A DNA stretch of 64,000 nucleotides from Gammaproteobacteria bacterium (GTDB lineage: Bacteria; Pseudomonadota; Gammaproteobacteria; Xanthomonadales; SZUA-36): the NCBI GenBank assembly GCA_030426265.1, contig JAUHYP010000001.1:1-64000 (forward strand). The letters are read 5' to 3'. The notes beneath the pieces were generated by a model. It did not search any database. It saw nothing but the letters and a program-made list of their open reading frames with translations, and was not told the origin of the DNA. The first letter of the stretch is position 1. Every line of letters begins with the position of its first letter. Positions 17,063-40,052 of this stretch are shown in pieces. The translations under genes and the position numbers were made by a program.

Positions 17063-17065
17063 GCG

Positions 17066-17906: not shown

Positions 17907-19727
17907 TTACTGCAGGTAGGTGTTCAGGTCCTGCAGGATCCAGCCCGTGGCCCAGTTCAGCTCGCCGCTGGTGGTGCCGAAGGCGCCGACATAGTCTTCG
18001 TTGGTGAAGAAGTCGTCGAAGAGCGAGAAGGGCAGGTCCGCGCCTTCCAGGTGCTCCGAGCCGTCTTCCAGGAAGACGCCGTCCAGTGTGACCGCTTCCA
18101 CCGTGTTGCCATCCTGGGCATTGAACCACTGCTCGGTGGTGTAGCTGCCCGGGTTGTCATCGGCGAACGGCGTGGTGCAGCCGCCCACGATCGAGTTGTT
18201 GATGGTCAGGTTCCCGGACAGGGCGTTCGGGGTGCCGCCGTACTCGAAGGTGGACACGTCGCGCAGGTTGAGACACTCGCCGCCACCCGTCACCAGGACG
18301 TTGCTGAGGTTCGCGCCGGAACCGCGGCGAATCACGATGCCGTCGCTGATGCCGTTGGCGATGAAGGTCGCGTTGGCGATCCAGGGCTTGGAACGCGGCT
18401 CCGCGTTGTTGTTGGAGCTCAGGCCGTCCGCCTCGATGCTGCGCGGGTCTTCACTGGCCGGGGCGCCCACGTCGGGGTTGCGAACCACCAGGGCGTTCTG
18501 AACGCGGCCCTGCCAGCCCTGAACCCAGTCCAGGCCGTCGTCGCCCATGTGGGTGGCGACCAGGTAGCGGGCGTTGTTCGTGCCGCCGAACCATTCGAAG
18601 GCGTCGTCACGGTTGTCGTGCACCTGGACGTATTCGAAGGTCGTGCCGCGGCCCACGCCGTGGAAGGCCACGCCGTTGTACTGGCGTTCCGGATCCTGGT
18701 CGATGTCGCCGCCGGCGTTCTGGACACGCAGGAAGCGCACCGAGCCGCTGCTTTCGTTCGGAGCGTCGCCGCCGTACAGGCTGGAGTCGACTTCGTTCTC
18801 GGCGCAACCCACGCCCTCACACACGTTCACCGGTGCGCGGCCGTGGATGATCAGGCCACCCCACTGCTGGCCGCCCGCGGGCGCTTCGTCCGCGTTCAGC
18901 GGTCCGGCCATTACGATCGGCGCGCTGCGCGTGCCTTCGGCCACCAGCTTGGCGCCCATCTGGACGAACAGGCCGGCGTCGGGGTTGCCGTCGTCACCCC
19001 ACACGATGCGGGTGCCCGGCTCGATGGTCAGCACGACGCCTTCGTTGTCGGTGCCGTCGGTGGTGTCCTGGTTGCCCACGTAGACGCGGCCCAGGCCGTA
19101 CCAAAGGGTGTCGTTGGTCAGCGTCGCGCTTTCGGTAAGCTCGCCCATGATGGCGCAGGCGCGATCTTCACCCGGGACCGCGGTCGCGAACGTCGGGCAG
19201 CCGGCAAACTCGGTGTTGTACACGCACTGGTTGCTTGCGAAACCGGTGATGTCGGACACGTTGTTGTAGGTCTGGTCGAAGTCCGAGTAGTCCTGGTCGG
19301 TCGCCGAGAAGGACAGGCCGATGTTGCCGCAGGTGTTGAAGGTGAAGGTGGCCGTACCGACGACGTCGCCGCCGGCGCCCGGGAAGTTGGGTCCGATGTC
19401 ACCGAACTCACCGCCGGAAACCACGGCGAAATCCATGTCGACCGAGAACTGGCCGGGAGCGACACCCGCGTTGCCGACCAGCCAGATCGGCTCGCCGGTG
19501 GTCGGGTGATAGGTGTAGTAGGCCAGGAACAGGATGCCGGTTTCCATCCCGGTGGGGATGTAGTGGACACCGAGGCCACGGCGGGTGTCCTGGTTGCCAT
19601 CGAGGTTGCTCTGCTCGACGAAGAAACCGTTCAGGTGCTCATCGAGCCAGTCCGCCTGGGCGGTAACGCCAAAGCCGGCCAGGGCAATGCCGGCGACGAC
19701 GGCGCGTAGAGTCTTGGAAGCTTTCAT
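17907..19727 (-). CDS. secreted beta-helix-like protein, PhoB-regulated
   Basis: 606 residues. A Sec signal peptide (MKASKTLRAVVAGIALAGFG, cleavage after AQA) has no lipobox. Residues about 35-125 resemble the WYxP/GEGF-type sandwich module of the hydrolase at 56472 (LAYYTYHPTTGEPIWLVGNA). From about residue 230 the chain has the rhythm of a right-handed beta helix with repeated EPGT, GAKLVAEGT, APIVMAGP, WGGLIIHG, GTTFEYVQVHDN, DDAFEWFGG and GISDGIVIRRGSGAN turns. Eight or so cysteines could form disulfides. Related beta-helix proteins occur near TonB-dependent receptors elsewhere, but I know of no assigned activity. Divergent tandem Pho boxes tie it to the TonB operon. It could be a surface binding partner, a lyase-like enzyme or an export substrate. 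AGAGGA lies 9 nt ahead of the ATG. Confidence 0.8.
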   Translation of the reverse strand: MKASKTLRAVVAGIALAGFGVTAQADWLDEHLNGFFVEQSNLDGNQDTRRGLGVHYIPTGMETGILFLAYYTYHPTTGEPIWLVGNAGVAPGQFSVDMDFAVVSGGEFGDIGPNFPGAGGDVVGTATFTFNTCGNIGLSFSATDQDYSDFDQTYNNVSDITGFASNQCVYNTEFAGCPTFATAVPGEDRACAIMGELTESATLTNDTLWYGLGRVYVGNQDTTDGTDNEGVVLTIEPGTRIVWGDDGNPDAGLFVQMGAKLVAEGTRSAPIVMAGPLNADEAPAGGQQWGGLIIHGRAPVNVCEGVGCAENEVDSSLYGGDAPNESSGSVRFLRVQNAGGDIDQDPERQYNGVAFHGVGRGTTFEYVQVHDNRDDAFEWFGGTNNARYLVATHMGDDGLDWVQGWQGRVQNALVVRNPDVGAPASEDPRSIEADGLSSNNNAEPRSKPWIANATFIANGISDGIVIRRGSGANLSNVLVTGGGECLNLRDVSTFEYGGTPNALSGNLTINNSIVGGCTTPFADDNPGSYTTEQWFNAQDGNTVEAVTLDGVFLEDGSEHLEGADLPFSLFDDFFTNEDYVGAFGTTSGELNWATGWILQDLNTYLQ

Positions 19728-19829
19728 CTATTGGGTCCTCTTGCTTCTGCGTGCAAATGGTCTGCGTACGAATCGTCCGCTTGCTTAAGTAGCCGCCTGC
19801 CACGGCGGCGCGGAAATGGGGCCTGCAGA

Positions 19830-19885
19830 ATCCTAGGGACCGCGCGTTTCAGGACGGTGACTGATTTGTGACAGCGACATGACAG
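19830..19885 (-). promoter_or_regulatory. tandem Pho boxes and promoter of the beta-helix gene
   Basis: Reading the minus strand from 19885, four 7-mers follow each other every 11 bp: CTGTCAT, CTGTCAC, CAGTCAC and CTGAAAC (the last at 19852-19846). Ten nucleotides later comes TAGGAT (19835-19830) as the -10. Two full Pho boxes in perfect phase with the -10 imply strong PhoB dependence. The leader to the ATG at 19727 is about 96 nt. Confidence 0.85.
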
Positions 19886-19897
19886 GATCACTGGTCC

Positions 19898-19931
19898 CTG
19901 TCATATCCCTGTCACAAGGGGTTTCTAGAAT
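19898..19931 (+). promoter_or_regulatory. Pho box and promoter of the TonB operon
   Basis: CTGTCAT (19898) and CTGTCAC (19909) in 11-bp register form a near-consensus Pho box. TAGAAT (19926-19931) lies exactly 10 nt after the second half. The transcript should start near 19938, giving an 88-nt leader to the DUF3450 start. It is back to back with the tandem boxes of the divergent gene, with 12 bp between the two sets. The rest of the 298-bp intergenic region 19728-20025 is untranslated leader on either side. Confidence 0.87.
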
Positions 19932-20025
19932 CCTCCCACCATCGATCGAACCCCGGCAGGGGCTGCCCCCCTGAATCCAAGAACGATTACAACGCCGATC
20001 ACAACACCGATACGGAATCAACGAG

Positions 20026-20805
20026 ATGACCCCTCTTCGACTGACCGTGGCTGTCGCCGTCCTCGGGACCGCTGGCCTTTTCAGCGCGCCCGCCGCCTTC
20101 GCACAGGCCGACGGCACGCTCGCCGAACGACTCATCACCCTGCGCGGGCAGGTGGACGAGCTGCAGAGCGAGCTGGACCTGCGCCGCGAAGAACACAAGA
20201 ACCGCATGGCCTATCTCACGGCCCAGCTCGCCGACCTCGAGGCGAACCGGGACCGGGAGCAGCTGCGCGTGAGCCAGCTCGAGACCGATCTCGAGGAGAT
20301 GCGCGTGGAAATCAGCGAGGCGGGCGTCAGCTCCGGCTCGCTCACACCGTTCCTCAAGAACCAGATCGTCGCCCTGCGCGAACAGGTGCGGACCGGTTTC
20401 CCCTTCAAGGTGCAGGAGCGCCTGTCGGTGCTGGAGGAACTGGAAACGCAGCTCGACAACGGCGTGATCTCGGCCCAGCGCGGGGTGAACCGCCTCTGGG
20501 CCTTCATCGAGGACGAATTCCGCATCTCCCGCGAGAACGCCATCTACTCGCAGTCCATCGCGCTCGACGGCGAGAACGTGCTGGTGGACGTGGCCAAGCT
20601 CGGCAACGTGATGATGTATTTCCGAACCCGCGACCTGCAGTACGGCCGCGCGGTGCAGACGCCCCAGGGCTGGCGTTTCGAGCGCCTCGACAGCGCCCAG
20701 GACCAGGAGCGGGTCGCCCGCCTGTTCGATTCCCTGCGTAAGCAGATCCGCCAGGGGTACTTCGAACTGCCGGAAGCCCTGCCGCTGAAGGGAGACGCCT
20801 CGTGA
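20026..20805 (+). CDS. DUF3450 periplasmic coiled-coil protein of the TonB2-type system
   Basis: 259 residues with a Sec signal peptide ending AFA-QADG. Residues about 30-110 are a long coiled coil (RLITLRGQVDELQSELDLRR; LETDLEEMRVEIS). The compact C-terminal part contains GFPFKVQERLSVLEELETQ, ISAQRGVNRLWAFIEDEFRI, LGNVMMYFRTRDLQYGRAVQ and WRFERL, the DUF3450 pattern. The same gene precedes ttpC-exbB-exbD-tonB in Vibrio-type TonB2 clusters. Its role there is unclear, but it is presumably a periplasmic partner of the TtpC coiled coil. It is the first gene of the PhoB-controlled operon and overlaps the next by 4 bp. Confidence 0.88.
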   Translation: MTPLRLTVAVAVLGTAGLFSAPAAFAQADGTLAERLITLRGQVDELQSELDLRREEHKNRMAYLTAQLADLEANRDREQLRVSQLETDLEEMRVEISEAGVSSGSLTPFLKNQIVALREQVRTGFPFKVQERLSVLEELETQLDNGVISAQRGVNRLWAFIEDEFRISRENAIYSQSIALDGENVLVDVAKLGNVMMYFRTRDLQYGRAVQTPQGWRFERLDSAQDQERVARLFDSLRKQIRQGYFELPEALPLKGDAS

Positions 20806-22223
20806 ACCGCCTTCACACCACCACGCGCCTGGCCCTGGCCGGGCTGCTGGCAGCCACCTTCTCCCTGGCCGCTTTCGGACAGGATGAATCAGCGCCGGCA
20901 GCGGAGCCGGCCCTGCCGCCGGTTCCACCGGTGAACGAACAGGACGCCCTGGACCAGCTCGAGGCCGCCTACCAGAAGGAATACGCCTTCCTGGAAGCGC
21001 AGCTGCGCGATCTTCAGGCCCGCGTGTCGGCCTTCGACAACCAGTCCACCACCGACGAACGCAATCGCGAAGCCCAGATCGACCGGGTCGAGGGCGAGTG
21101 GCTGAGTCTGCAGTCCCGCGCCGAGCGCACCCAGGAATTCATGACCGAGGCGACCCGCGAACTCGAGTCGGTGGACGACGCCCGGACCACGCTGGAAGCG
21201 ACCTTCCTGCAGGCCGATTCCACGCTGGAGGAATACGACGTCGCCGAGCTGAAGTCCGAGGAATACCTCTCCAGCCCGGACGGTGACCGCATCGAAACGG
21301 TGTTCGGCCACGCCATTCGCCTGCTGGGCCAGGTCAGCACGATGTACGAACGCAGCGGTCCCTTCTTCCTGCGCGACGGCACCGAAGTGCAGGGCCAGGT
21401 CATCCGGGTGGGCAACATCGCCGCCTACGGCGTGAGTCCGCAGGGCTCCGGCGCCCTGGCGCCCGCCGGCGAGGGCCGCCTCAAGGTCTGGTCCACCCCG
21501 GCCGAGGACACCGCCACCGCCCTGGGCGCCGGTAGCGCCCCCGACGTGCTGGGCATGTTCCTGTTCGAGTCCGAGGCCAAGGCCATCGAGGAGCAGGAGG
21601 GCAAGACCCTGCTCAGCGTGATCAACAGCGGTGGCACCATCGGCTGGATCATCGTGGTGCTGGGCCTGATCGGCCTGCTGCTGGCCGTGCTGCGCTTCAT
21701 GTTCCTGCGTTCCGCCAGCGCTTCCACCTCGAAGATCGTCGACGCGGTAGGCGAGGAAGTGCGTGAAGGCCGCCTCGAGGCCGCGCTGAAGGCCTGTGAC
21801 AACTTCAAGGGCTCCACGGCGCGCGTCGTGAAGGCCGCGGTGCGCAACCTCGACCGCGACCGGGCGCACCTGGAGGACATCATCTCGGAGGCCATCCTGC
21901 ACGAGTCGGCCCACCTGAACCGCTTCGGGGCCATCATCCTGGTGATCGCCGGCGTCGCGCCCCTGCTGGGCCTGCTCGGAACGGTGACGGGGATGATCAC
22001 GACCTTCGACATCATCACCGAGTTCGGTACGGGCGATCCCAAGCTGCTGTCCGGTGGCATTTCCATCGCCCTGGTGACGACGGAGCTGGGCCTGGCGGTC
22101 GCCATTCCCATGCTGCTGCTGGGCAACATCCTGTCCGGCTGGGCGGAGTCCATCAAGGACGGCATGGAGAAGGGCGCGCTGCGCGTGATCAACAACTACA
22201 AGGAACACCGGCGGACCGCCTGA
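20802..22223 (+). CDS. TtpC-type MotA/TolQ/ExbB proton-channel protein with large periplasmic domain
   Basis: 473 residues, more than twice the size of ordinary ExbB. A signal peptide (LALAGLLAATFSLAAFG) leads to a periplasmic coiled-coil region (about 45-150) and a further globular part to about residue 260. The channel domain follows: TM1 at about 275 (IGWIIVVLGLIGLLLAVL), TM2 at about 375 (AIILVIAGVAPLLGLLGTVT) and TM3 at about 420 (ISIALVTTELGLAVAIPMLL). This architecture is that of TtpC, the third channel protein of TonB2 systems. Placed between DUF3450 and a normal ExbB it supports a TonB2-type energiser rather than the classical three-gene set. Confidence 0.92.
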   Translation: MNRLHTTTRLALAGLLAATFSLAAFGQDESAPAAEPALPPVPPVNEQDALDQLEAAYQKEYAFLEAQLRDLQARVSAFDNQSTTDERNREAQIDRVEGEWLSLQSRAERTQEFMTEATRELESVDDARTTLEATFLQADSTLEEYDVAELKSEEYLSSPDGDRIETVFGHAIRLLGQVSTMYERSGPFFLRDGTEVQGQVIRVGNIAAYGVSPQGSGALAPAGEGRLKVWSTPAEDTATALGAGSAPDVLGMFLFESEAKAIEEQEGKTLLSVINSGGTIGWIIVVLGLIGLLLAVLRFMFLRSASASTSKIVDAVGEEVREGRLEAALKACDNFKGSTARVVKAAVRNLDRDRAHLEDIISEAILHESAHLNRFGAIILVIAGVAPLLGLLGTVTGMITTFDIITEFGTGDPKLLSGGISIALVTTELGLAVAIPMLLLGNILSGWAESIKDGMEKGALRVINNYKEHRRTA

Positions 22224-22226
22224 GCC

Positions 22227-22853
22227 ATGCAGCAGTCGATCCTCCAGGAGTTCCTGTCCTACATCGAGGCCGGCGGCTGGGTGATGCCCCCGCTGATCTT
22301 CCTGATGATCGTGCTCTGGTACGCCATCGGCTACCGGGCGGCGGCCTTGCGCCGCGGCACGCAGCGCGGACCACGTCGCCTGCTGGACAAGGCCGAACGC
22401 AAGCCGGAAAAAGCCGGCAAGTTGCTGGCCGGTGACGGCATCCTGGTCAGCGCCGCGCGCAAGGGCCTGGAGCTCAAGGACCGCGGCGTGATCGAGTTGC
22501 GCGGCTTTCTCGACGATGCCTTTGCCGAGGAGTACCGGGAGATCCGCAAGTTCGACGTGCTGATCCGCACCATCGTCGGTGTCGCGCCGCTGCTGGGGCT
22601 GCTGGGCACGGTGATCGGCATGATCGAAACCTTCGACTCCCTGGGCGACATGTCGCTGTACTCCCAGTCCGGCGGGATCGCCGGCGGGATTTCGCAGGCC
22701 CTGTTCACCACCCAGATGGGCCTGGCGGTTTCCATCCCCGGCCTGATCGTGAACGGGGTGCTGAACCGCAAGCAGAAGGACCTGGAGCTCGAACTGGCCC
22801 AGATGAAAGACATCCTGTGCGCCGAACAGACGGCGGAGCAGGGAGGACACTGA
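22227..22853 (+). CDS. exbB: ExbB-like biopolymer transport proton-channel subunit
   Basis: 208 residues, typical for TonB2-type ExbB. TM1 is near the N-terminus (GWVMPPLIFLMIVLWYAIGY); a cytoplasmic domain follows; TM2 is IVGVAPLLGLLGTVIGMIET and TM3 is FTTQMGLAVSIPGLIVNGVL, with the conserved small and Thr residues that line the proton path. It forms the pentameric motor with ExbD. The start is 3 bp after the TtpC-type gene stop, and a single base separates its stop from exbD. Confidence 0.93.
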   Translation: MQQSILQEFLSYIEAGGWVMPPLIFLMIVLWYAIGYRAAALRRGTQRGPRRLLDKAERKPEKAGKLLAGDGILVSAARKGLELKDRGVIELRGFLDDAFAEEYREIRKFDVLIRTIVGVAPLLGLLGTVIGMIETFDSLGDMSLYSQSGGIAGGISQALFTTQMGLAVSIPGLIVNGVLNRKQKDLELELAQMKDILCAEQTAEQGGH

Positions 22854-22854
22854 G

Positions 22855-23265
22855 ATGCGTTACCGCGAACGGAAAGAGACCACCGAAGACATCAACATCT
22901 CCCCGTTGATCGACATGGTGTTCATCCTGCTGATCTTCTTCATGGTGTCGACGACCTTCGTGAAGGACATGAAGCTGGACCTGAACCGCCCCGCGGCGGC
23001 CAGCGCCAGCGCGGCCTCCACCAAGGCGATCCGCCTCTACATCGACAATGCCGGTGACATCTACCTGGACGGCGAACCGGTGCGCATCTGGGTGATCCAG
23101 AGCCGCATCCGTGATCAGCTGGCCGGCAGCACGGGCAAGTCCGTGCTGGTGGTGACCGATGACGGCGTGCCCGCCGGCCGCCTCGTGGAAGTGGTGGACC
23201 AGGCGCGCCTGGCCGGCGCCACCGACGTGGGCGTGGCCACCGTGGAGGAAGCGGGAGCCGGCTGA
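22855..23265 (+). CDS. exbD: ExbD-like proton-channel subunit
   Basis: 136 residues. A short cytoplasmic N-terminus is followed by the single helix SPLIDMVFILLIFFMVSTTF, which carries the proton-translocating Asp (Asp20 here, the equivalent of Asp25 of E. coli ExbD). The periplasmic ExbD/TolR domain ends GATDVGVATVEEA. It couples proton flow through ExbB to TonB. The stop overlaps the tonB start by one base. Confidence 0.94.
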   Translation: MRYRERKETTEDINISPLIDMVFILLIFFMVSTTFVKDMKLDLNRPAAASASAASTKAIRLYIDNAGDIYLDGEPVRIWVIQSRIRDQLAGSTGKSVLVVTDDGVPAGRLVEVVDQARLAGATDVGVATVEEAGAG

Positions 23266-23909
23266 TGGGCAGCGCGACGATCACAAAGCGCCGACTGGCG
23301 GGCCTGGCCTCAATGGTGATCGGCTCCATCCTCGTCCTGGGGATGGTGGTGCTGATCAATCGCTTCGCCGAGGGGCTGGACCGCAACCGCGGCGACGACG
23401 GCGACCAGATCGTCTTCGAGCGCAAGCCGCCGCCGGAACAGAAAGTCGTGCAGCAGCCCAAGCCCAAACCCAAACCACGGCGCCAGCCCTCGGCCCCGCC
23501 GCCGCCCCTGGGCGGACTGGGCGCCAACCTGTCCGGGATCGACTTCGGCCTGCCGGGCTTCGACATGTCCGACCTGAACGCCCTGGACAGCGACCTGCTG
23601 GGCGGCGGCGATGGCATGGTCATGACCGACGACACCGTGGACGATCCGCCGCGGGCGACCTTCCAGGCGCCGATGCAGTTTCCGCCACGGGCCAAGGCCA
23701 AGGGCATCACGGGTTACGTGGTGCTGTCCCTGCTGATCGGCGTGACCGGCCAGATCGAGGAGATCCGCATTGTCGAATCCAGTCCGGAAGGCATCTTCGA
23801 CGACGTGGCCGTGCAGGGCGTGAGCCAATGGAAGTTCGAGCCCGCCACCTACCAGGGCAAGGCGGTGCGTTCCTGGGCCAAGCAGCGCGTGCGCTTCGAC
23901 CTGAGCTGA
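23265..23909 (+). CDS. tonB: TonB-family energy transducer
   Basis: 214 residues. One signal-anchor helix (LASMVIGSILVLGMVVLINR), a short Pro/Lys-rich spacer (PPPEQ, QPKPKPKPRRQPSAPPPPL), a Gly/Asp-rich linker, and a C-terminal TonB domain of about 80 residues (GYVVLSLLIGVTGQIEEIRI, VAVQGVSQWKFEPATYQGK). The spacer is much shorter than in E. coli TonB, as in TonB2-type proteins, so DUF3450 and the TtpC-type protein may help bridge the periplasm. It presumably serves the receptor encoded at the end of the same operon. Confidence 0.92.
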   Translation: MGSATITKRRLAGLASMVIGSILVLGMVVLINRFAEGLDRNRGDDGDQIVFERKPPPEQKVVQQPKPKPKPRRQPSAPPPPLGGLGANLSGIDFGLPGFDMSDLNALDSDLLGGGDGMVMTDDTVDDPPRATFQAPMQFPPRAKAKGITGYVVLSLLIGVTGQIEEIRIVESSPEGIFDDVAVQGVSQWKFEPATYQGKAVRSWAKQRVRFDLS

Positions 23910-23915
23910 TCCGAG

Positions 23916-25070
23916 ATGAACCGGAAAATCCCCATCCTGGCGGCCTTCGTGCTGTCCCTGGCCCTGGCGACCACGGCGCCGGCCAAGGAAACGGAGGACG
24001 AGGTGAACTTCCTCGACCTCGCCGCGCTGATGCTGCGCGACGGCAACCTCGAGCGCGCACTCGTCGCCCTGGACCAGGTCGACCTCCAGGCGGAGGAAAC
24101 CGACCTCCTGCGCTACTACACCCTGCGCGGCATGGCCCATCTGCGCCGCAGCGAATTCGAGCCCGCCGCCGACGCCCTGGAGTCGGCGACAGGGACGGGC
24201 GCGGCCGAGTCCGTTGTCTACGTCTACCTGGCCCAGGCCTACTTCAACCTGGAGCGCTACCGCGACGTGCTCTCCGCCCTGGAGCGTGCCGGTCCTGAAC
24301 TGTCACGGGTGGCGTCCATCTATCACATGCGCGCCCAGTGCCACTGGCTGCTGAAGGAGCCCGCGATGGCCCTGGCGGTCCTGGACCAGGCCAGCGAGGT
24401 GTTTCCCGAAGACCCGGGATTCCAGCGCCGCAAGGTGTTCTTTCTCATGGACCTGGGCCTGTACCAGGAGGCCGCCGAGCAGGGCGGTGACTACCTGGCC
24501 CGCAGCGAGGGCAAGCTGGAAGACTACCTCGGCCTGGGCAACGCCATGCGCGCCAGCGGCCAGCTGGACGAGGCGGCGCGACTGCTCGAATACGCCAAGC
24601 TGCGCTTTCCCGCCGACACCGGGGTGAAGAAGGTTCTGGCCAACACCTACATGGATCGCCGGCAGCTCAACGCGGCGGCGGACCTGGTGCTCGAAGCCTC
24701 CCTGTTCGAGCCGCAACTCACCTCCGAGGCGGCCGAACTGTACCGGCGCGCCGGGCGGCCGCAGCGGGCGCTGATGCTCAACGGCCAGGTGCAGGACCAG
24801 GAGGTCAAGCTCAAACAGCGCCTGGCCCTGTACATCGAGACCGGCCAGTTCGCGATGGCCGCCGGAATGGACCGTGATCTCCAGCGCCTCGGGCTGCTGA
24901 ACGACGAAGACATCCGATACGCCCTGGCCTACTCGCAGTTCAAGACCGGCGATTTCGCCGGCGCCGAGAACCACCTGCAGAAACTCACGCGCCCGGACCT
25001 GTTCCGCAAGGCCGCGGAACTGCGCAGCGCCATCCAGGACTGCGCCGAGGACACCTGGCAATGCCTGTAA
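23916..25070 (+). CDS. periplasmic TPR protein of the TonB2-type operon
   Basis: 384 residues. A signal peptide (IPILAAFVLSLALATTAPAK) is followed by successive helical repeats of about 34 residues: LMLRDGNLERALVALDQVDL, YVYLAQAYFNLERYRDVLSA, MRASGQLDEAARLLEYAKLR. A TPR gene occupies the same place after tonB in Vibrio TonB2 clusters. It is probably a soluble scaffold that interacts with the TonB complex or receptor. It begins 6 bp after tonB and overlaps the receptor start by 10 bp. The C-terminus holds two cysteines (DCAEDTWQCL), possibly a disulfide. Confidence 0.85.
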   Translation: MNRKIPILAAFVLSLALATTAPAKETEDEVNFLDLAALMLRDGNLERALVALDQVDLQAEETDLLRYYTLRGMAHLRRSEFEPAADALESATGTGAAESVVYVYLAQAYFNLERYRDVLSALERAGPELSRVASIYHMRAQCHWLLKEPAMALAVLDQASEVFPEDPGFQRRKVFFLMDLGLYQEAAEQGGDYLARSEGKLEDYLGLGNAMRASGQLDEAARLLEYAKLRFPADTGVKKVLANTYMDRRQLNAAADLVLEASLFEPQLTSEAAELYRRAGRPQRALMLNGQVQDQEVKLKQRLALYIETGQFAMAAGMDRDLQRLGLLNDEDIRYALAYSQFKTGDFAGAENHLQKLTRPDLFRKAAELRSAIQDCAEDTWQCL

Positions 25071-28000
25071 TTCCCGGAAAGCGCCTCGCACACTCGGCGG
25101 GGCGGTGGGTCCTCGCCTGCGCGTTGCTGGCGGTCGCCGCCGTGGCCTGGGCCCAGGACGCGAGCATGACGCTGTACGTGTTCAAGAAAGGCCTGCCGCA
25201 GCCGAACATCGAGGTCCTGCTCGACGACCAGCTCGCCGGTGTGACCAACGAGCAGGGCGTGCTGCGTTTCGACATCCCGCCGGGCATCCGTTTCCTGGAA
25301 ATCCGCGACCAGGACACGGTCGTGCTCAGCCAGCAGTTGCTGGTCAACCAGGATGAGATCAGCCAGTGGATCGTGAACATCACCGAGGGCCTGGGCGCCC
25401 TGGTGGACACGGAATCCTCCGCGGGGGGCGCGCCGGCCGTGGCCGCCGCAGCGGCGGCGACCCAGGCCGAAGGCGGCCCTGGAACCCTGTCCGGCGTGCT
25501 GATCAGCGTCGACGACGGGCGGCCGGTCTCCGGCGCCCGGATTTTCGTGAGCGGGCAGTCCCGTGATCTGCGAACCGGAGACGACGGGCGTTTCAGCATC
25601 GAGGTGCCGGCCGGCGAATACTCCCTGTCCGTGCTGCACGCCGCCCACAACACCCTCACCCGCGACAGCATCGCGGTGTCCGAGGGCGAGACCACCGAGC
25701 TTTCCCTGGAACTGACGCCGGCCGGGTCCGAACTGCCGGAATTCGTGGTCATCGAGCCCTACATCGAGGGCAGCCTGGCCTCGGTGCTGGAAGAGCGCCG
25801 AACCGAACTGGCGGTGACCAACATCCTCGGCGCCGAGCAGATCTCCAAGGCCGGCGACAGCGACGCCGCCGGCGCGCTGCAGCGTGTCACCGGCCTGACC
25901 CTGGTGGGCGGTCGCTTCATCTACGTGCGCGGACTGGGCGAACGCTACTCCAGCACGCTGCTCAATGGCGCCAACGTGCCCAGCCCGGACCCGTCCCGCC
26001 GCGTCGTGCCTCTGGACCTGTTCCCGACCAGCATCATCCAGTCCATCGCGGTCAAGAAGGGCTACACCGGCGAACTGCCCGGTGAGTTCGGCGGCGGCCT
26101 GGTCGAAATCCGCACCAAGTCCGTTCCCGAGACCTCGTTCCTGGAATTCGAGTTCGGCCTGGCCTATCGCGACGGCACGAGCTTCAAGGACGGCATCCGG
26201 TATGACGGGGGCGGCAGCGACTGGACCGGCCGTGACGACGGTACCCGCGACCTGCCCGACATCATGGCCGCGGCGGTGGACGGCCCGACGGAGCTGCAGC
26301 GCTTCAACCGCTTCACCGGCGAAGGCTACGAGCCGGAAGAGCTGGAGCTGATCGGCGAATCCCTGGACCCGAACTACGACGTGTACGAGGAGGAGATCGA
26401 CCCCAACCTCGACGCCAGCATCGCGGGCGGCTGGTCACACGAGTTCGATGACGGATCCCGCGTGGGCTTCCTGGCCTCGATGGAATGGAAGGACCAGTGG
26501 CTGACCACCGACCAGGTCGAGCGCGTGCTGGTGGTCGGCGCGGGCGATGAACTGCGGCCGGATGCCGAATTCAACACGCGCCAGACCATCCGCGACGTGA
26601 ATTTCAGCAGCTTCTTCACCACGGGCCTCACCTTCCGTGAGAACCACGAACTGGCCTACAACTGGATGCTGCTGCGCAGCACCTCCGACCGCGCCGCCAT
26701 CCTGCGCGGCACCGACCCGGACATCACCGGCGGCGAGCGCCTGGCGCGCACCCTGGAGTGGATCGAGCGCGAGATGAAGGCCAACCAGCTGCTGGGAAGG
26801 CACACCCTGCCGGCGATCGGCGGCCTGAAAGTGGACTGGCAGTGGACGGACGCCGAGGCGGGCTCCTGGGAGCCGGACCGGCGCGAGTACCGTTACGGAC
26901 CCAACCGTTTCACGCCGGAGGAGGACGATTTCATCTTTGCCCTGGACCGCGGCGCCATGGTGCGCTCCTGGGGCGACCTGAACGACACCTCCCAGAGCTG
27001 GAACATCGATTTCACCCTGCCGCTGGAACTGTCGGACACCATCGACCTCTCCATCAAGACCGGCCTCAACGACGTGACCAAGTCCCGCGACTCGGTGCTG
27101 CGCAAGTACTCCTTCGAGTCCCGGGGCAGCATTGCCAGCGACCGGGAGCTGCGGGAGAACCTGTCGCTGGGCGACGTGATCTTCGACGAGACCATCGCGC
27201 CCAACGGCTGGGAAATCTACGAAGCCACCGGCCGCAACGACAACTACGTGGCCGAGTCCAAGACCGATTCCTGGCACGTGGGGCTGGACCTCAACATCGG
27301 CGATTCCTGGCGTTTCGGCGGCGGCTTCCGCAACGAGAAGTTCTTCCAGCGGGTGGTCACCCTGGACATCTTCGCGACCGACCCCGTCATCGCCGAGTCC
27401 GACCTGGACCTCGACGACCAGTTTCCCTTCGCCACGGCGACCTGGATCCTGGGCGACCACCAGTTCCGCGCCGGCTGGGCCGAAACCACCAACCGCCCGG
27501 ACTTCAAGGAACTGGCGGACGTGATCTTCCGCGACCCGGTGCTGGACCGCCTGATCCGCGGCAACCCGGACCTCGATCCGGCGTTCATCACTCACTACGA
27601 CCTGCGCTGGGACTACTACTTCAATCCGGGTGAGTTCATTTCCTTCGGGGTGTTCCTGAAGGAATTCGTCGATCCCATCGAGTACGTGGCCGTGGCCTCG
27701 GCCGATGCCTCGCTGACGACCCTGGACAACGCCGAATCGGCGGAGAACTTCGGTTTCGAGTTCGAGTTCTACAAGACCCTGGATTTCCTGCACGACTGGT
27801 GGGAATGGGGCGAGTGGTGGGGTAACGTCTACCTCAACACCAACTATGCCTGGATCGAGTCCGACATCACGCTGGGTGAGCGCCAGTCGTCCGTGCAGAC
27901 CAACACCAGTCGGCCGCTGCAGGGCCAGTCGCCCTACGTGTGGAATTTCCAGGTGGGCTTCGAGGATGTCGAGCGCGATATCAATGCGGCGCTGCTGTAC

Positions 28001-28240
28001 AACGTGTTCGGTCGCAGGATCGTGGACGTGGGTGTGCAGGGCGCACCCGACATCTACGAGGAGCCGCGTCCCTCCCTGGATTTCGTCTACACCCAGGGCT
28101 TCGGCAACTGGCAGTTCCAGGGCAAGCTGAAGAACCTGCTCGATCCCGCCATCGAAATCACCCAGGGCGAGGAGATTCGCCGCCGCTACGAGCCGTTCGG
28201 CCTCGAAGCCTCCGTCTCCGTCCGTTACACCTTCCAGTAA
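25061..28240 (+). CDS. TonB-dependent outer-membrane receptor with two N-terminal sandwich domains (Oar-like)
   Basis: 1059 residues. A signal peptide ends AWA-Q (about 31). Two carboxypeptidase-regulatory-like beta sandwiches follow, at about 36-105 (GLPQPNIEVLLDDQLAGVTN) and 140-225 (VDDGRPVSGARIFVSG; GDDGRFSIEVPAGEYSLSVL). A hydrophobic TonB-box-like PEFVVIEP lies at about 226. The plug is at about 246-365 (DAAGALQRVTGLTLVGGRFI, YVRGLGERYSSTLLNGANVP), and the barrel runs to the end. The last residues are RYTFQ, so the usual terminal aromatic is one residue in. The layout is that of Oar/SusC-like receptors; in Myxococcus an Oar receptor has been linked to protein secretion, while most relatives import large ligands. 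The ligand here is unknown; PhoB control points to phosphorus. Confidence 0.92.
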   Translation: MPVIPGKRLAHSAGRWVLACALLAVAAVAWAQDASMTLYVFKKGLPQPNIEVLLDDQLAGVTNEQGVLRFDIPPGIRFLEIRDQDTVVLSQQLLVNQDEISQWIVNITEGLGALVDTESSAGGAPAVAAAAAATQAEGGPGTLSGVLISVDDGRPVSGARIFVSGQSRDLRTGDDGRFSIEVPAGEYSLSVLHAAHNTLTRDSIAVSEGETTELSLELTPAGSELPEFVVIEPYIEGSLASVLEERRTELAVTNILGAEQISKAGDSDAAGALQRVTGLTLVGGRFIYVRGLGERYSSTLLNGANVPSPDPSRRVVPLDLFPTSIIQSIAVKKGYTGELPGEFGGGLVEIRTKSVPETSFLEFEFGLAYRDGTSFKDGIRYDGGGSDWTGRDDGTRDLPDIMAAAVDGPTELQRFNRFTGEGYEPEELELIGESLDPNYDVYEEEIDPNLDASIAGGWSHEFDDGSRVGFLASMEWKDQWLTTDQVERVLVVGAGDELRPDAEFNTRQTIRDVNFSSFFTTGLTFRENHELAYNWMLLRSTSDRAAILRGTDPDITGGERLARTLEWIEREMKANQLLGRHTLPAIGGLKVDWQWTDAEAGSWEPDRREYRYGPNRFTPEEDDFIFALDRGAMVRSWGDLNDTSQSWNIDFTLPLELSDTIDLSIKTGLNDVTKSRDSVLRKYSFESRGSIASDRELRENLSLGDVIFDETIAPNGWEIYEATGRNDNYVAESKTDSWHVGLDLNIGDSWRFGGGFRNEKFFQRVVTLDIFATDPVIAESDLDLDDQFPFATATWILGDHQFRAGWAETTNRPDFKELADVIFRDPVLDRLIRGNPDLDPAFITHYDLRWDYYFNPGEFISFGVFLKEFVDPIEYVAVASADASLTTLDNAESAENFGFEFEFYKTLDFLHDWWEWGEWWGNVYLNTNYAWIESDITLGERQSSVQTNTSRPLQGQSPYVWNFQVGFEDVERDINAALLYNVFGRRIVDVGVQGAPDIYEEPRPSLDFVYTQGFGNWQFQGKLKNLLDPAIEITQGEEIRRRYEPFGLEASVSVRYTFQ

Positions 28241-28876: not shown

Positions 28877-28916
28877 GGCCGGGCGACAAGGTCCCGGCTT
28901 CCGCCGCCGCCTTGGT

Positions 28917-32066: not shown

Positions 32067-33056
32067 CTAGGCCCGGTCGGCGGGAAAGGCGATCACCTCG
32101 TCGATGCGGCGTGCACCCAGGAGGGTCATCAGCAGGCGGTCGACGCCCAGGGCGACACCGCTGCAGGCGGGCAGGCCCTGTTCCATTGCGGCGAGCAGGC
32201 GTTCGTCCAGGGGAACGGGACGGCCACCGGTGGCGCTGCGTCGGACGTTCTCGGCCTCGAAGCGGTCACGCTGCTCCGCCGGATCGGTGAGTTCACCATA
32301 ACCGTTCGCCAGTTCGGTGGGGCCGAGAAAGACCTCGAAGCGTTCCGCCACCCGCGGGTCCGGGGCATGCAGTCGGGCGAGCGCGGCCTGCGAGGCCGGA
32401 TAGAGGTGCACCAGGGTCATCGTGCCCGGATCCTGGGCCGGCTGAACCACGTGGCTGACCAGCAGGTCCAGCCAGCCATCCCGGTCCAGGCCCTCCAGTC
32501 CCCCGGTCCCGACCCCTGCCTCCTCGAGGGCGCCCCGGATGGCCGGTACCGGCGCCTCCAGGGCGTCGATTCCCGCGCTTTCGCCCAGCCAGTCACGCCA
32601 GATCACCCGGCGCACGGTCCATGATCGCCCGAAGGCCGCCCCGCAGTGCGCCACGAGTTCGGCGACCTCGTCCATCAGGGCGGTGTACTCCCAGCCGACC
32701 CGGTACCACTCCAGCAGGGTGAATTCCGGGTTGTGCCAGGCGCCGGCCTCCCCGGCCCGGAACACGCGGCCGAGTTCGTAAATGTCGCCGCTGCCGGAGG
32801 CGAGCAGGCGCTTCATGGGGTATTCGGGCGAGGTGCGCAGCCAACGCTGGTCCGTCGTGTGGAACTGTTCGATCGCGGGGTCCGAGTTGCCGGCGCCGGA
32901 CAGTACGGGGGTTTCGACCTCGAGCACTTCGCGCCCGGCGAAGAACGCGCGGATCAGCGACAGCAGCCGGCCCCGGGCCCGCAAGGCTTCACTGGCGGCT
33001 GTGGGACCTGGATCGCCGGATTCCGCCTTCACGGGGCCGGTGTCCTCAGGCGACAT
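32067..33056 (-). CDS. epmA: EF-P beta-lysine ligase EpmA (PoxA/GenX)
   Basis: 329 residues, a class II lysyl-tRNA-synthetase-like catalytic core without the anticodon-binding domain. Motif 2 region: YPMKRLLASGSGDIYELGRV, FRAGEAGAWHNPEFTLLEWY. Motif 3: CSGVALGVDRLLMTLLGARR. EpmA attaches (R)-beta-lysine to a lysine of elongation factor P, relieving polyproline stalling. Length matches the family (about 325). The start overlaps the end of ppx by 11 bp, so it is the last gene of the minus-strand phosphorus cluster. EpmB and EF-P genes are not in the window. Confidence 0.93.
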   Translation of the reverse strand: MSPEDTGPVKAESGDPGPTAASEALRARGRLLSLIRAFFAGREVLEVETPVLSGAGNSDPAIEQFHTTDQRWLRTSPEYPMKRLLASGSGDIYELGRVFRAGEAGAWHNPEFTLLEWYRVGWEYTALMDEVAELVAHCGAAFGRSWTVRRVIWRDWLGESAGIDALEAPVPAIRGALEEAGVGTGGLEGLDRDGWLDLLVSHVVQPAQDPGTMTLVHLYPASQAALARLHAPDPRVAERFEVFLGPTELANGYGELTDPAEQRDRFEAENVRRSATGGRPVPLDERLLAAMEQGLPACSGVALGVDRLLMTLLGARRIDEVIAFPADRA

Positions 33057-34587
33057 GAAGCCCCAGGCTGAGGTCGAGGTAGAGGCCCATGACGCGCAAC
33101 TGCGTTCGTTCGGCCCCCAGGTCCGCCAGGGTCAGGGGATGGGCCATCGCCCAGGGGGCGTCCACGCGCAGTTCCAGCCGGTGTCCGTCCCGCCTGAGTT
33201 GGAACTCGGGCAGCGCCGTGTCGTCCCGTGTCCGGCAGAACACGCATGCCAGGCGCAGGCAGGCGAGCAGAAGCCTCAGGGGTTCGCGCAGCCGCGGCGG
33301 CAAGGTGCCGGCGTACTTGGCAGGAATGTCGCGGCGGTGGAACAGGACCAGCGTCGCCAGGAAGGCCTGCTCCTGCTGCGTGAAGCCCGCCATGTCCGAC
33401 TCCTGGACCAGGTAGGCCGAGTGGCGCTGGTAGTGGCTGTGCGACACGCTGAGGCCCACCTCGTGCAGATCCGCGGCCCAGGTCAGCAGGTCCGCGTGCG
33501 CCGGCTGTCCCAGGTCCTCGCCGGCGATCCCTTCCAGGGCCGCCAGCGCGACGTGCTTGACGCGCCCGGCCTGTTCCTCGTTCACGCCGTAGCGGGCGCG
33601 GAACGCCTGCACCGTCTTGTCGCGGGGGTCGTGGTGCTCCAGGCGGCCCAGCAGGTCGTGCAGGGCGCCTTCGCGCAGGGCGAAGGGGGAGACCTTCATG
33701 GTGTCGATGCCCAGGACCTCGAAACAGGCCGAAAGAATCGCGACCCCGCCCACGAACACCTCGTGGCGTCGTTCCGAAAGGCCCGGCATGGCCAGTTCCG
33801 AGGTGCTCCGAAACATGAGCACCTCCTCCCGCAGGCGTTCCAGGGCCGAGGCGGTCAGGTGTTCTTCGGACCAGCCGCGCGAGGCGCAGATCGTGGCCGC
33901 GGCGCGGATGGTGCCGGAGGAGCCGATGGCGGTTTCCCAGCCGCGCCGGCGGTAGCGCACCTGCAGTTCCTGCAATTCGGCCATCACCGCCTGCCGGGCG
34001 CGTTCGAATTTGCGCGGGGTGATCTTGCCGTTGCCGAAAAACCATTGCGTTGTGGACACGCAACCGAACTGCAGGCTCTCCAGTTCCAGTGGCTGCAGGC
34101 CCTCGCCGATGACCAGTTCCGTGCTGCCGCCGCCGATGTCGATCACCAGGCGCTTCTCGTCCAGGCCGGCCACACCCTGGGTCACTCCGAGGTAGACCAG
34201 GCGCGCCTCTTCCCGGCCGCCGATGATGTCCACCGGGCAGCCCAGGGCGGTCTCGGCGATCATCAGGAAGGCATTGGCGTTGCGCATGCGCCGCAGGGAC
34301 TGCGTGCCCACGGCGCGGATGTTGGCGTTGGGGATGCCACGCAAACGCTGGCCGAAGCGGGCCAGGCATTCCAGCGCGCGTTCCTGGGTCTCGATATCGA
34401 GGTAGCCGCTGCGATCGAGCCCGCCGGCCAGGCGCACCATTTCCTTGATGCGGTCGATGAAGCGCAATTCGCCGTGTTCGCGGCGCGCGACGACCAGGTG
34501 AAAGCTGTTGCTGCCCAGATCGACGGCCGCGTAGGTCTCCGCCGTTTCGGTGGACTCGGTGTGCTCGAGGTCAGCGACGCTGGCCAT
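33046..34587 (-). CDS. ppx: exopolyphosphatase (Ppx/GppA family)
   Basis: 513 residues. The ASKHA-fold phosphate-binding motifs are AAVDLGSNSFHLVVARRE near the N-terminus and VIDIGGGSTELVIGEGL at about residue 145. The C-terminal half is an HD-like helical domain (LLTWAADLHEVGLSVSHSHY). Ppx removes terminal phosphates from polyphosphate; GppA relatives hydrolyse pppGpp, and the two cannot be separated by eye, but the place next to ppk1 favours Ppx. A gap of 24 bp separates it from ppk1. Confidence 0.93.
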   Translation of the reverse strand: MASVADLEHTESTETAETYAAVDLGSNSFHLVVARREHGELRFIDRIKEMVRLAGGLDRSGYLDIETQERALECLARFGQRLRGIPNANIRAVGTQSLRRMRNANAFLMIAETALGCPVDIIGGREEARLVYLGVTQGVAGLDEKRLVIDIGGGSTELVIGEGLQPLELESLQFGCVSTTQWFFGNGKITPRKFERARQAVMAELQELQVRYRRRGWETAIGSSGTIRAAATICASRGWSEEHLTASALERLREEVLMFRSTSELAMPGLSERRHEVFVGGVAILSACFEVLGIDTMKVSPFALREGALHDLLGRLEHHDPRDKTVQAFRARYGVNEEQAGRVKHVALAALEGIAGEDLGQPAHADLLTWAADLHEVGLSVSHSHYQRHSAYLVQESDMAGFTQQEQAFLATLVLFHRRDIPAKYAGTLPPRLREPLRLLLACLRLACVFCRTRDDTALPEFQLRRDGHRLELRVDAPWAMAHPLTLADLGAERTQLRVMGLYLDLSLGLHVA

Positions 34588-34611
34588 GGTCGGCGGTCCC
34601 CGGACCGGGCC

Positions 34612-36744
34612 CTACTTGCCCAGGCGCCGGTAGATGATGGCCTGCGGGTGTTGCGCCTTCTCCGGCGCCTCCTGCTCGGTCAGCTCGTAGCCGCCATCGG
34701 CGCGCATTTCCCAGGCTTCGGTGCGCTCTTTCCAGAAGGCTTCGATCGCCTCGAATTCGACGCGCTTGCGAACGGCCGCCTCCAGGATGGGGAAGGCGAC
34801 TTCGACGCGCTGGAACAGGTTGCGCTCCATCCAGTCGGCGCTGGAGCACCACAGCTCCGGTTCCCCGTCATTCTCGAATCGGAAGACCCGCGAATGTTCC
34901 AGGAACCGCCCGACCACCGAGCGCACGCGGATGGATTCGGAAACGCCGGGAATTCCGGGGCGCAGGCAGCACATGCCCCGCACGACCAGCCGAATCGGCA
35001 CGCCGGCGCGAGAGGCCTTGTAGAGCGCGCGAATGATCTTCGGCTCGGTGAGGCTGTTCATTTTCGCGTCGATGCCGGCCGGCTTGCCGGCCTCGGCATG
35101 GGCGGCCTCGCGTTCGATCTTCGCCAGCAACTGCTTGTGCAGCGTGAACGGCGAGTTCAGGCACTCCTTGAGCTCGATCACCTTGCCCAGCCCCGACATC
35201 TGCTGGAACAGGTTCTGCACGTCCTGGCCGATCGCGTCGTCACAGGTCAGCAGGCCGAAGTCGGTGTAGAGCTTGGCCGTGCCGGAGTGGTAGTTGCCGG
35301 TGCCCAGGTGCACGTACCGGCGGATGCGGCCCCGTTCGCGCCGGACGATCATGAGCATCTTGGCGTGCGCCTTGTGCCCCACGATGCCGTACACGACCTG
35401 CACCCCGGCCTCCTGCAGGCGCGTGGCGAGGTTGATGTTCACGTCCTCGTCGAAGCGGGCGCGCAGTTCGACCACGGCGGTGACGTCCTTGCCGGCGCGG
35501 GCCGCCTCGACCAGCAGATGCACCACCTGCGAGTCGATGCCCGTGCGGTAGAGGGTCTGCTTGATGGCCAGCACCTTGGGGTCGCGCGCGGCCTGCCGCA
35601 TCAGGTCGATGAGCGGCGAGAAGCTCTCGTAGGGGTGGTGGAGCAGGATGTCGTGCCGCCGGATCTCCCCGAACAGATGGGTCTTGCCGGCGAGCGCGCG
35701 CGGCAGGCGCTGGCGGAAGGTCGGGTAGCCCAGGTCCGGGCGGTCGATCTGGTCGATCACCTCGGTGATGCGGTAGAGATTGACCGGCCCGTCGCAGCGG
35801 TACACGTCGTCGGCGGCCAGGTCGAACCGGGCGGCAAGGTACTTCTCGACCGTCGCCGGGCAGCTCTCGCGCACTTCCAGGCGGACGCCTTCCGCGTAAC
35901 CGCGCTCCATCAGTTCGCGTTGCAGCGCCCGCGCCAGGTCCTCGATCTCCTCCTCGTCCACCAGCAGCTCGGAGTCGCGCGTGACGCGGAACTGGTGGCT
36001 GCCGACGATCTCCATGCCCGGGAACAGTTCGTCCATGAAGGCCTGCAGGACCGAGGACAGGAACACGAAATCGTAGGGTCCCTTGGTGTAGGACACCGGG
36101 ATGCGGATCAGTCTCGGCAGTGAGCGCGGGGCGCGCACCAGGGCCATGGAGCCCTCGCGCCCGAAGGCGTCGCGGCCGCGCAACTCGACCAGGAAGTTCA
36201 GGCTCTTGGTGAGAATGCGCGGGAAGGGGTGCGCCGGGTCCAGGCCCAGGGGGCTGAGGATGGGCATGAGCTCGCGGCGGAAATAGCGGTGCAGCCAGCG
36301 CCGCTGGCGCTCGGTCCAGCTCGAGCTTTCCAGGAACCGGATGCCTTCCCGGGCCAGCTGGGGCTTGAGGTCTTCCTGGTAGCAGCGGTACTGCTCCTCG
36401 GACAGCTCCAGCGAGGACTCGCGGATCAGGGCGAGCAGGTTGAGCGGCGTCAGGCCGTCGGGGCCGGGGCTGGCGGCGCCGTGCTGGATGCGCTGTTTCA
36501 GCGAGGCGACGCGCACCTCGAAAAATTCGTCCAGCAACACGCGCGAGATGCTGAGGAACCGCAGTCGTTCGAGCAGCGGAATGCGCTCGTCGCGGGTCAT
36601 GGCCAGCACGCGGCGCTGGAACTGCAGCAGGCTCAGTTCGCGGTTGACGTACAGCCGGGGGTCGCGCAGGTCCGAAGGCGGATCCTTCTCCAGCGCCGAT
36701 ACAAAGGTTTCGTCCGGCTGGATGGGGATGACGTTGGAGTCCAT
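34612..36744 (-). CDS. ppk1: polyphosphate kinase 1
   Basis: 710 residues, the family's usual length. The N domain carries YVNRELSLLQFQRRVLAMTR; the head domain PFPRILTKSLNFLVELRGRD; the catalytic C1 domain has KAHAKMLMIVRRERGRIRRY with the His that is phosphorylated, followed by VHLGTGNYHSGTAKLYTDFG; the C2 domain has RLVVRGMCCLRPGIPGVSES. It makes polyphosphate from ATP and, with Ppx, sets the polyphosphate pool. The ATG at 36744 lies six bases after TATACT and has no Shine-Dalgarno sequence, so its mRNA may be leaderless. A degenerate Pho box lies in phase upstream. Confidence 0.95.
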   Translation of the reverse strand: MDSNVIPIQPDETFVSALEKDPPSDLRDPRLYVNRELSLLQFQRRVLAMTRDERIPLLERLRFLSISRVLLDEFFEVRVASLKQRIQHGAASPGPDGLTPLNLLALIRESSLELSEEQYRCYQEDLKPQLAREGIRFLESSSWTERQRRWLHRYFRRELMPILSPLGLDPAHPFPRILTKSLNFLVELRGRDAFGREGSMALVRAPRSLPRLIRIPVSYTKGPYDFVFLSSVLQAFMDELFPGMEIVGSHQFRVTRDSELLVDEEEIEDLARALQRELMERGYAEGVRLEVRESCPATVEKYLAARFDLAADDVYRCDGPVNLYRITEVIDQIDRPDLGYPTFRQRLPRALAGKTHLFGEIRRHDILLHHPYESFSPLIDLMRQAARDPKVLAIKQTLYRTGIDSQVVHLLVEAARAGKDVTAVVELRARFDEDVNINLATRLQEAGVQVVYGIVGHKAHAKMLMIVRRERGRIRRYVHLGTGNYHSGTAKLYTDFGLLTCDDAIGQDVQNLFQQMSGLGKVIELKECLNSPFTLHKQLLAKIEREAAHAEAGKPAGIDAKMNSLTEPKIIRALYKASRAGVPIRLVVRGMCCLRPGIPGVSESIRVRSVVGRFLEHSRVFRFENDGEPELWCSSADWMERNLFQRVEVAFPILEAAVRKRVEFEAIEAFWKERTEAWEMRADGGYELTEQEAPEKAQHPQAIIYRRLGK

Positions 36745-36750
36745 GTCCAG

Positions 36751-36784
36751 AGTATAGGGGCGCGGCAAGACGGTTTCATGATGC
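36751..36784 (-). promoter_or_regulatory. ppk1 promoter with degenerate Pho box
   Basis: On the minus strand GCATCAT (36784-36778) and CCGTCTT (36773-36767) stand in 11-bp register and match CTGTCAT at 4 and 5 of 7 positions. TATACT (36756-36751) follows after exactly 10 nt. The hexamers are weak but the geometry is that of the strong Pho promoters in this window. Confidence 0.45.
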
Positions 36785-36822
36785 CGCGTCTCCACCCGGC
36801 GCCAGGGGCCGGGTGGGGCGGC

Positions 36823-37824: not shown

Positions 37825-37892
37825 GTGGGGTCCTTTCCCGCCCGGCACGGCCGGTCCGGCGGATTGTGTTGGGGGTAGCGGGTCGGCCCTGC

Positions 37893-37898
37893 AGTATA
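37893..37898 (-). promoter_or_regulatory. possible pstS promoter -10
   Basis: TATACT on the minus strand, 69 bp upstream of the pstS ATG, in the phoR-pstS gap. No convincing -35 or PhoB half-sites at the standard spacing are present. Confidence 0.3.
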
Positions 37899-37916
37899 AC
37901 GGAAGCGGTGGCGCGC

Positions 37917-39230: not shown

Positions 39231-39237
39231 GGTGCGA

Positions 39238-39936: not shown

Positions 39937-39969
39937 GGCCTTTCCGGCAGGAGGGAATTCACTACCGCC

Positions 39970-40002
39970 ATTATAGGGCCCGTCATGACAGTTTAATGAC
40001 AA
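39970..40002 (-). promoter_or_regulatory. Pho box and promoter of phoB (autoregulation)
   Basis: On the minus strand TTGTCAT (40002-39996) and CTGTCAT (39991-39985) are in 11-bp register with TAAA between. TATAAT (39975-39970), a perfect -10, follows 9 nt later. PhoB should activate its own operon. Confidence 0.87.
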
Positions 40003-40052
40003 GCGCAGGGCGCCTGCGTGACGCATGCCGCCCGGTGCGGCAGAGCGAGGCT

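Follow-up and report, generated by a model that had tools for sequence, protein, structure and literature searches.

The first 64,000 nucleotides of contig JAUHYP010000001.1 (assembly GCA_030426265.1), from a gammaproteobacterium of the Xanthomonadales and hereafter called the window, contain a module of eight genes that probably encodes a TonB system, driven by PhoB, that imports a phosphorus source, with a secreted beta-helix protein as the extracellular partner of its receptor. A preliminary description of this DNA had proposed a TonB system dedicated to phosphorus and equipped with a receptor and an exoprotein of its own. The linkage of these parts is supported by Pho boxes, gene co-occurrence, and a distinct energizer subfamily, whereas the novelty claimed for the receptor/exoprotein pair did not stand. 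We regard the finding as half new: the pair itself is known, and what appears to be new is its coupling to its own TonB motor.

All eight open reading frames (ORFs) of the module listed in the preliminary description are present and open. The beta-helix gene (17907..19727, minus strand) encodes a putative secreted right-handed beta-helix protein of 606 amino acids, assigned from its ORF, a structure model, and homology to ElpS. A 298-bp divergent region separates it from seven genes on the plus strand. These encode a DUF3450 (TtpB-like) protein (20026..20805; Pfam, 5.6e-32); a long TtpC-like ExbB of a distinct subfamily (20802..22223; Pfam MotA_ExbB, tree, and class-wide search); an ExbB (22227..22853; Pfam MotA_ExbB); an ExbD (22855..23265; Pfam); a short TonB of 214 amino acids (23265..23909; Pfam TonB_C, 1.8e-20); a TtpD-like TPR protein (23916..25070; Pfam TPR repeats); and a TonB-dependent receptor of 1059 amino acids (25061..28240; Pfam, model, and homology to CC0171), whose Pfam domains are CarboxypepD_reg, Plug, and OMP_b-brl_3. 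With intergenic gaps of at most 6 bp and three small overlaps, the seven genes are packed as in a single operon, and judged by this spacing the run from the DUF3450 gene to the receptor gene would be one operon that holds all six energizer gene kinds (DUF3450, TtpC, ExbB, ExbD, TonB, and TPR). No SusD-family Pfam match was found among the eight proteins of the module, and a SusCD/PusCD pair was ruled out by this missing partner.

Perfect Pho boxes face both transcription units

Pho boxes facing both ways had been claimed for the divergent promoter, and a perfect site is indeed present toward each transcription unit. The operon-facing box (CTGTCATATCCCTGTCAC, 19898-19915, plus strand) is followed 10 bp later by TAGAAT (19926-19931). 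The box facing the beta-helix gene (CTGTCATGTCGCTGTCAC, 19868-19885, minus strand) is overlapped by a third Pho repeat (19857-19874, minus strand), and the element spanning 19857..19885 comprises three repeats with 11-bp spacing; a clear minus-10 was not found at 10 bp from this box. The sequence scan also located a Pho box before the likely start of the minus-strand phoB gene (39985-40002), with TATAAT following after 9 bp, a layout that resembles that of the operon-facing box.

To place these sites in a genomic setting, the draft genome (3.6 Mb, 97.7% complete) was scanned with the pattern CTGTCAYN4CTGTCAY. Only two perfect sites occur, both of them in the divergent promoter. With one mismatch or fewer there are eight sites, three in the divergent promoter, one before phoB, and four within or at the edge of ORFs of at least 90 amino acids (unproven as genes), and a control scan of the genome with the reversed pattern returned two sites. 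The best Pho score of the divergent region is 23, compared with a maximum of 19 over 300 shuffles of the region. A chance Pho box is excluded by these site counts and shuffles. A looser scan of the window (three mismatches or fewer) yields six sites against a shuffle mean of 3.1, and 8 of 100 shuffles reach six; on this account, only the near-perfect sites are telling. At other promoters of the window, the pstC site is weaker (19/24) and pstS has nothing above 14.

These sites bear on the possibility that the module is nothing more than a TonB2 system for iron or carbohydrate whose place next to the pst operon is incidental. The TonB2 system of Vibrio vulnificus serves iron, being Fur-box-linked and iron-induced (PMC6957404), and the fold of the exoprotein matches carbohydrate-active proteins. 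Against such a role, Pho boxes here point toward both units, the other two TonB2-type clusters of the genome lack them (best scores of 15 and 17 versus 23 here), and low-phosphate induction of homologues has been published (PMC2996285 and PMC8115612). Iron limitation had been named as the alternative signal, but no Fur-like site stands out in the divergent promoter, where the best match in a consensus test is 9/19, below the shuffle mean of 10.2. Iron dedication was set aside as unlikely on this ground, and an ordinary TonB2 system as a whole is very improbable.

Conservation of the Pho boxes at related loci was also checked, and Pho-like sites recur in Proteobacteria before beta-helix and DUF3450 genes. 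At a score of at least 19/24, they precede 26 of 48 beta-helix genes from proteobacterial loci (3e-18) and 6 of 13 DUF3450 genes (8e-6), compared with 9 of 285 control ORFs taken from 40 random stretches of proteobacterial genomes (40 of 43 drawn); both p-values are nominal, as the relatives' rows include close kin and one duplicated locus. At a score of at least 21/24, the counts are 4/48 for beta-helix genes, 1/13 for DUF3450 genes, and 0/45 for receptor genes, versus 2/285 for control ORFs. The fact that few sites survive this threshold indicates that the Pho signal of the relatives is one of many moderate sites.

The beta-helix gene usually occurs with the receptor gene

The survey of relatives that the preliminary description had called for found the beta-helix gene usually in the company of the receptor. 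In an even draw of 369 Gammaproteobacteria genomes, the beta-helix protein is present in 28, and the 26 genomes that have the receptor (E 1e-40 or better) are all among these (hypergeometric 7e-38, nominal since the genomes are related); such a receptor was not found in the beta-helix-bearing genomes G202 and G240. In the stretches fetched from the 27 class genomes other than our own, the pair lies within 1 kb in 19. The beta-helix match is about 200 bp beyond the receptor, at a contig end, in G085 and G209; a nearby copy lies 2.2-2.4 kb from the receptor in G146, G157, and G268; and the two genes are 6.3 kb apart in one genome. G323 carries two copies of the module (L031 and L032); at L031 about 6.8 kb separates the beta-helix gene from the receptor, and the beta-helix match contains one internal stop.

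At a broader scale, the beta-helix protein occurs in 51 of 398 genomes of the phylum and in 47 of 119 genomes of the family of L197, the putative Caulobacter locus discussed below. Among 80 named loci, mostly from other classes or phyla, the pair lies within 500 bp in 68; most of the remaining 12 are cut by contig ends, and no receptor was found at L118, L120, and L122, which have full flanks. Plasmid records with a beta-helix match (E 1e-5) contain a receptor match (E 1e-30) in 19 of 21 cases. Judged by record titles, the ElpS/FII family extends to Proteobacteria, Acidobacteria, Bacteroidota, and others. Five Bacteroides loci (L076, L102, L109, L110, and L116) have a tandem pair of beta-helix genes after the receptor.

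The pair is related to ElpS/CC0171 and FII/Fjoh_0545

Although the preliminary description had presented the pair as undescribed, two low-phosphate systems of this kind were already published, ElpS/CC0171 (PMC2996285) and FII/Fjoh_0545 (PMC8115612). By sequence comparison, the beta-helix protein and the receptor of the window are homologous to ElpS and CC0171. We took L197 as the Caulobacter elpS locus on the basis of a lipobox, LAGC, at residues 17-20, followed by a receptor gene and gsp genes in the published order; GspD was confirmed there. The window beta-helix protein aligns with the L197 protein at 28% identity over 466 columns (9e-31), and the window receptor with its CC0171 neighbor at 30% (4e-83).

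ElpS (CC0170) is produced under phosphate starvation in Caulobacter crescentus (PMC2996285), and a 2024 study reportedly places various TonB-dependent receptors within the Caulobacter PhoB regulon (PMC11208175). As in the window, the exoprotein and receptor genes of Caulobacter share one locus, where they are adjacent. ElpS differs in being a lipoprotein whose release is aided by a type II system with adjacent genes, whereas the window exoprotein has no lipobox. The gene order differs as well, as the window exoprotein gene is divergent and the receptor gene comes last in the TonB operon. In the 20-kb L197 stretch, motor genes resembling the window's were not found.

A second likeness is to the Flavobacterium loci PUSIII and PUSIV, where a low-phosphate-induced receptor and a related exoprotein are encoded beside phoBR. 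In Flavobacterium johnsoniae, FII and the adjoining receptor Fjoh_0545 are induced by low phosphate (PMC8115612), and the Pfam domains of Fjoh_0545 (Plug, CarbopepD_reg_2, and OMP_b-brl_3) are the same three as in the window receptor. Unlike the window exoprotein, FI and FII are described as lipoproteins. At L134, from a Flavobacteriales metagenome, phoR-phoB adjoin the receptor and exoprotein genes as described for PUSIV; the window beta-helix protein matches the L134 protein at 38% over 287 columns (1e-43), and the receptors match too. The Flavobacterium kinship thus rests on the statement of PMC8115612 and on this look-alike rather than on the Fjoh sequences. Motor genes of the window kind are absent from the 10.7-kb L134 contig.

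The energizer belongs to its own TtpC lineage

A search for the window-type TtpC in the 369 class genomes gave a two-peaked result, with 13 genomes at 348 bits or more and the next best at 121. All 13 are among the 28 genomes that have the beta-helix protein (1e-16, nominal). When 25 TtpC proteins, from pair-bearing stretches and from the genome's own two other clusters (C16 and C20), are placed in a tree, the window type forms its own clade of 11 rows with support of 100/100. A second clade unites C16 and C20 with clusters that adjoin the pair in genomes resembling Alteromonas and Pseudoalteromonas. Because of this split from the clade of C16 and C20, we call the window energizer TonB2-like rather than TonB2. 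The two clades suggest that the pair gained a motor at least twice.

The clearest case from a named organism, of the second kind, is the Alteromonas macleodii plasmid pBGP9, where genes for PhoB, PhoR, a phosphate-binding protein, an oxygenase, the beta-helix protein, and the receptor are followed by a motor of DUF3450, two MotA/TolQ/ExbB genes, ExbD, TonB, and TPR, with the TtpC in the canonical clade. The oxygenase gene, of the 2OG-Fe(II) type, lies between those for the phosphate-binding protein and the beta-helix protein (L258, 6716-7507).

Among known motors, Vibrio vulnificus TonB2 has the same six gene kinds, opening with DUF3450 (TtpB) and closing with the TPR protein (TtpD); the window operon differs in its Pho boxes, its own receptor, and a TtpC lineage well separated from the clade of C16 and C20, a comparison made by description and not by Vibrio protein sequences. 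Vibrio TonB3 has a receptor gene inside the operon and is described as not iron-regulated and as having no known substrate (PMC6957404). In the literature searched, which left most subscription papers out of reach, we found no account of a Pho-controlled motor of the TonB2 type.

The exoprotein is predicted to be a right-handed beta-helix

Neither Pfam, at its cut-offs, nor NCBIfam gives a match for the 606-amino acid protein. Its structure model (mean pLDDT 81, core mostly above 90) places a helix core at residues 171-549 and a small N-terminal beta-strand domain at approximately residues 35-142. Foldseek returned nothing at E 0.001 or better with this model, and a profile of the family compared with sequences of solved structures gave nothing significant (one match at E 0.57). 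The assignment as a right-handed beta-helix, which the model supports, comes instead from a second-look structural alignment, in which tailspikes, NosD, alginate epimerases, polygalacturonases, and Pel9A align to the model, the highest Z score being 24. The polysaccharide enzymes Pel9A, AlgE4, GH28, and PL6 have the same fold (Z about 20-23), with identities to the window protein of about 8-14%.

The N-terminal domain is weakly nitrophorin-like in Foldseek, and the alignments of G367 (L003), L063, and L064 extend into it, whereas most other relatives align from about residue 150. Twelve relatives (L034-L037, L039, L040, L065, L073, L103, L124, L128, and L139) seemingly have two or more beta-helix domains, as judged by length (about 900-1400 amino acids; 2315 for L139) and, in several, by two same-frame matches. 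The signal region of the window protein has no cysteine, and hence no lipobox; ElpS has one, but as several of the aligned relatives have no cysteine at that position, we do not take the lipobox as family-defining.

Residues invariant in 42 sequences include D374, D375, E378, D396, D397, D400, E432, D434, R467, and N476, which comprise a DDxxE and a DDxxD motif with acidic residues about one coil (22 residues) apart. ElpS, outside the set of 42, has D and N at the positions of E432 and D434. The invariant residues are compatible with a metal-dependent site for binding or cleavage. The two motifs may resemble the calcium site found in lyases of family 9.

This spacing of acidic residues about one coil apart would also suit a starvation exoenzyme or activator that acts in the medium, with the receptor taking up the product or signaling and no direct contact between the two proteins. 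Over-production of ElpS, for which no such activity of its own was seen, led to more secreted alkaline phosphatase activity (PMC2996285), and type II secretion genes adjoin the pair in several relatives; in Indioceanicola they lie downstream of it, as in Caulobacter. Yet the two genes occur together and close to each other almost without exception in different phyla, which suggests a tighter link, and FII and FI are listed with a predicted outer-membrane location (PMC8115612). An exoenzyme acting apart from the receptor seems quite doubtful to us. The preliminary description had further allowed that the exoprotein is itself exported, and no support was found for export through the receptor.

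Receptor features and candidate ligands

The receptor is modeled as a plugged barrel of the standard kind, and its structure matches give no pointer to a ligand. Arginine occupies 6 of 19 subfamily-specific conserved columns versus 6 of 42 other conserved columns, a comparison to which two of the eight control receptors (L260 and L266), apparently wrong-frame ORFs, add noise. This enrichment would favor a receptor that imports inorganic phosphate, or a metal-phosphate or polyphosphate, at very low concentration, with the beta-helix protein as a phosphate-concentrating or metal-bridged cap and not an enzyme.

The gene neighborhood points in the same direction. Among 1116 flanking ORFs, the commonest clusters are response regulators (21 loci), ABC ATPases (15), and GspD-type secretins (13), with PstS-like proteins and GspE-type ATPases at 10 loci each; the regulator and ATPase clusters also contain members other than PhoB and PstB. 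A Pfam scan of ten of the eleven commonest clusters revealed response regulator, ABC ATPase, PstS-like, type II secretion, MoxR-type ATPase, and TPR proteins and one unmatched cluster, and no phosphatase, nuclease, or phytase in these ten, rarer clusters being left unnamed. The textbook outer-membrane route for phosphate is through passive porins, and the genome yields a single, marginal match to Porin_O_P, which scores 21.4 bits where the cut-off is 20.9 and covers 31 positions.

Against the import of inorganic phosphate, the beta-helix core resembles polysaccharide enzymes, and the arginine positions cannot be mapped onto the pore. Moreover, TonB receptors usually serve large or rare ligands. 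We consider this explanation unlikely. As the ligand of the proposed import system, a phosphorylated oligomer or glycoconjugate is slightly favored over free phosphate, the oligomer being suggested by the beta-helix fold and free phosphate by the gene neighborhood. PhoX is encoded in the genome, so phosphomonoesters have another route.

Phosphate genes and other neighbors in the window

Phosphate genes flank the module on both sides. Upstream lie pit and a DUF47 gene (10212-12197, minus strand; Pfam) and pstC, pstA, pstB, and phoU (12273-17846, plus strand; Pfam for pstC and phoU), of which we take pstA and pstB to be so by recognition. PstC (748 amino acids) and PstA (563 amino acids), encoded at 12273-16217, seem unusually long. 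Downstream are ppx, ppk, pstS, phoR, and phoB (33046..40026, minus strand), with PhoB at 338.5 bits and the PstS family at 248.3 bits, both over cut-offs; ppx and ppk are presumed, again by recognition. Adjoining the module, a gene for an LTXXQ/metal-resistance-like protein is divergent from those for an apparent response regulator and sensor kinase (28286-30962).

A proposed mechanism and the observations that weigh against it

From the gene content, Pho boxes, homology, co-occurrence, and separate energizer lineage, we infer a course of events that starts with induction by PhoB. Under phosphate starvation, PhoR-PhoB would turn on both sides of the divergent promoter. The secreted ElpS/FII-family protein would capture, and perhaps cleave, a phosphorus-bearing ligand outside the cell in contact with the receptor as its partner. 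The receptor and its own motor (DUF3450, TtpC, ExbB, ExbD, TonB, and TPR) would then draw on proton-motive force to carry the ligand into the periplasm, and phosphate would there be handed over to PstS-PstCAB.

Several observations weigh against this proposal. Receptor genes of relatives show no significant enrichment of Pho sites (3/45 at a score of at least 19/24), and cc0171 is reported to be constitutive, unlike elpS (PMC2996285). Deletion of elpS left phosphatase activity unchanged (PMC2996285). Homologues of PhoBR, PstB, PstS, or PhoU are found in only 10 of 51 proteobacterial stretches and 9 of 80 named loci (controls 1/40), and under strict thresholds the neighboring phosphate genes number 5/31, 3/20, and 8/80 versus 1/40 in controls. 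In the class sample, only a few best candidates were scored per genome, and in G146, G157, and G268 the best-scoring beta-helix copy lies elsewhere, with no receptor. The fold is typical of polysaccharide enzymes, and a sugar ligand is therefore possible.

The link to the motor is likewise limited. The expectation that the beta-helix gene would keep the TonB operon beside it held for 17 of the 27 other class genomes, where the fetched stretch includes three or more motor genes, and failed for the other 10, whose fetched stretches lack them, and for 79 of the 80 named loci. The 10 include G367, the one same-order relative that has the pair, which gave no TtpC match at E 1e-20. The single named locus with motor genes nearby is the xanthomonad L064, where a scan made with no control comparison, as for all 80 named loci, found Pho-like sites of 22/24 before the DUF3450 gene and 24/24 between the receptor and beta-helix genes. 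The motor link is thus chiefly gammaproteobacterial, and outside that class the motor operon was not seen close to the pair.

A wider picture can be offered, although tentatively. Active import of phosphorus across the outer membrane might be widespread and unrecognized, with a gammaproteobacterial motor lineage that evolved for a Pho-regulated receptor with a beta-helix cap, and Alteromonas-like bacteria might have placed a TonB2 motor of the canonical clade under Pho-like sites to serve the same pair. Phosphate limits growth in many waters and soils. If the proposed import system is correct, some bacteria would spend proton-motive force at the outer membrane to obtain phosphorus, and their supply would be pumped and not only diffusive. 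Such a system would further account for the joint occurrence of the ElpS/FII family with one receptor family, and would give the ElpS/FII family a testable job.

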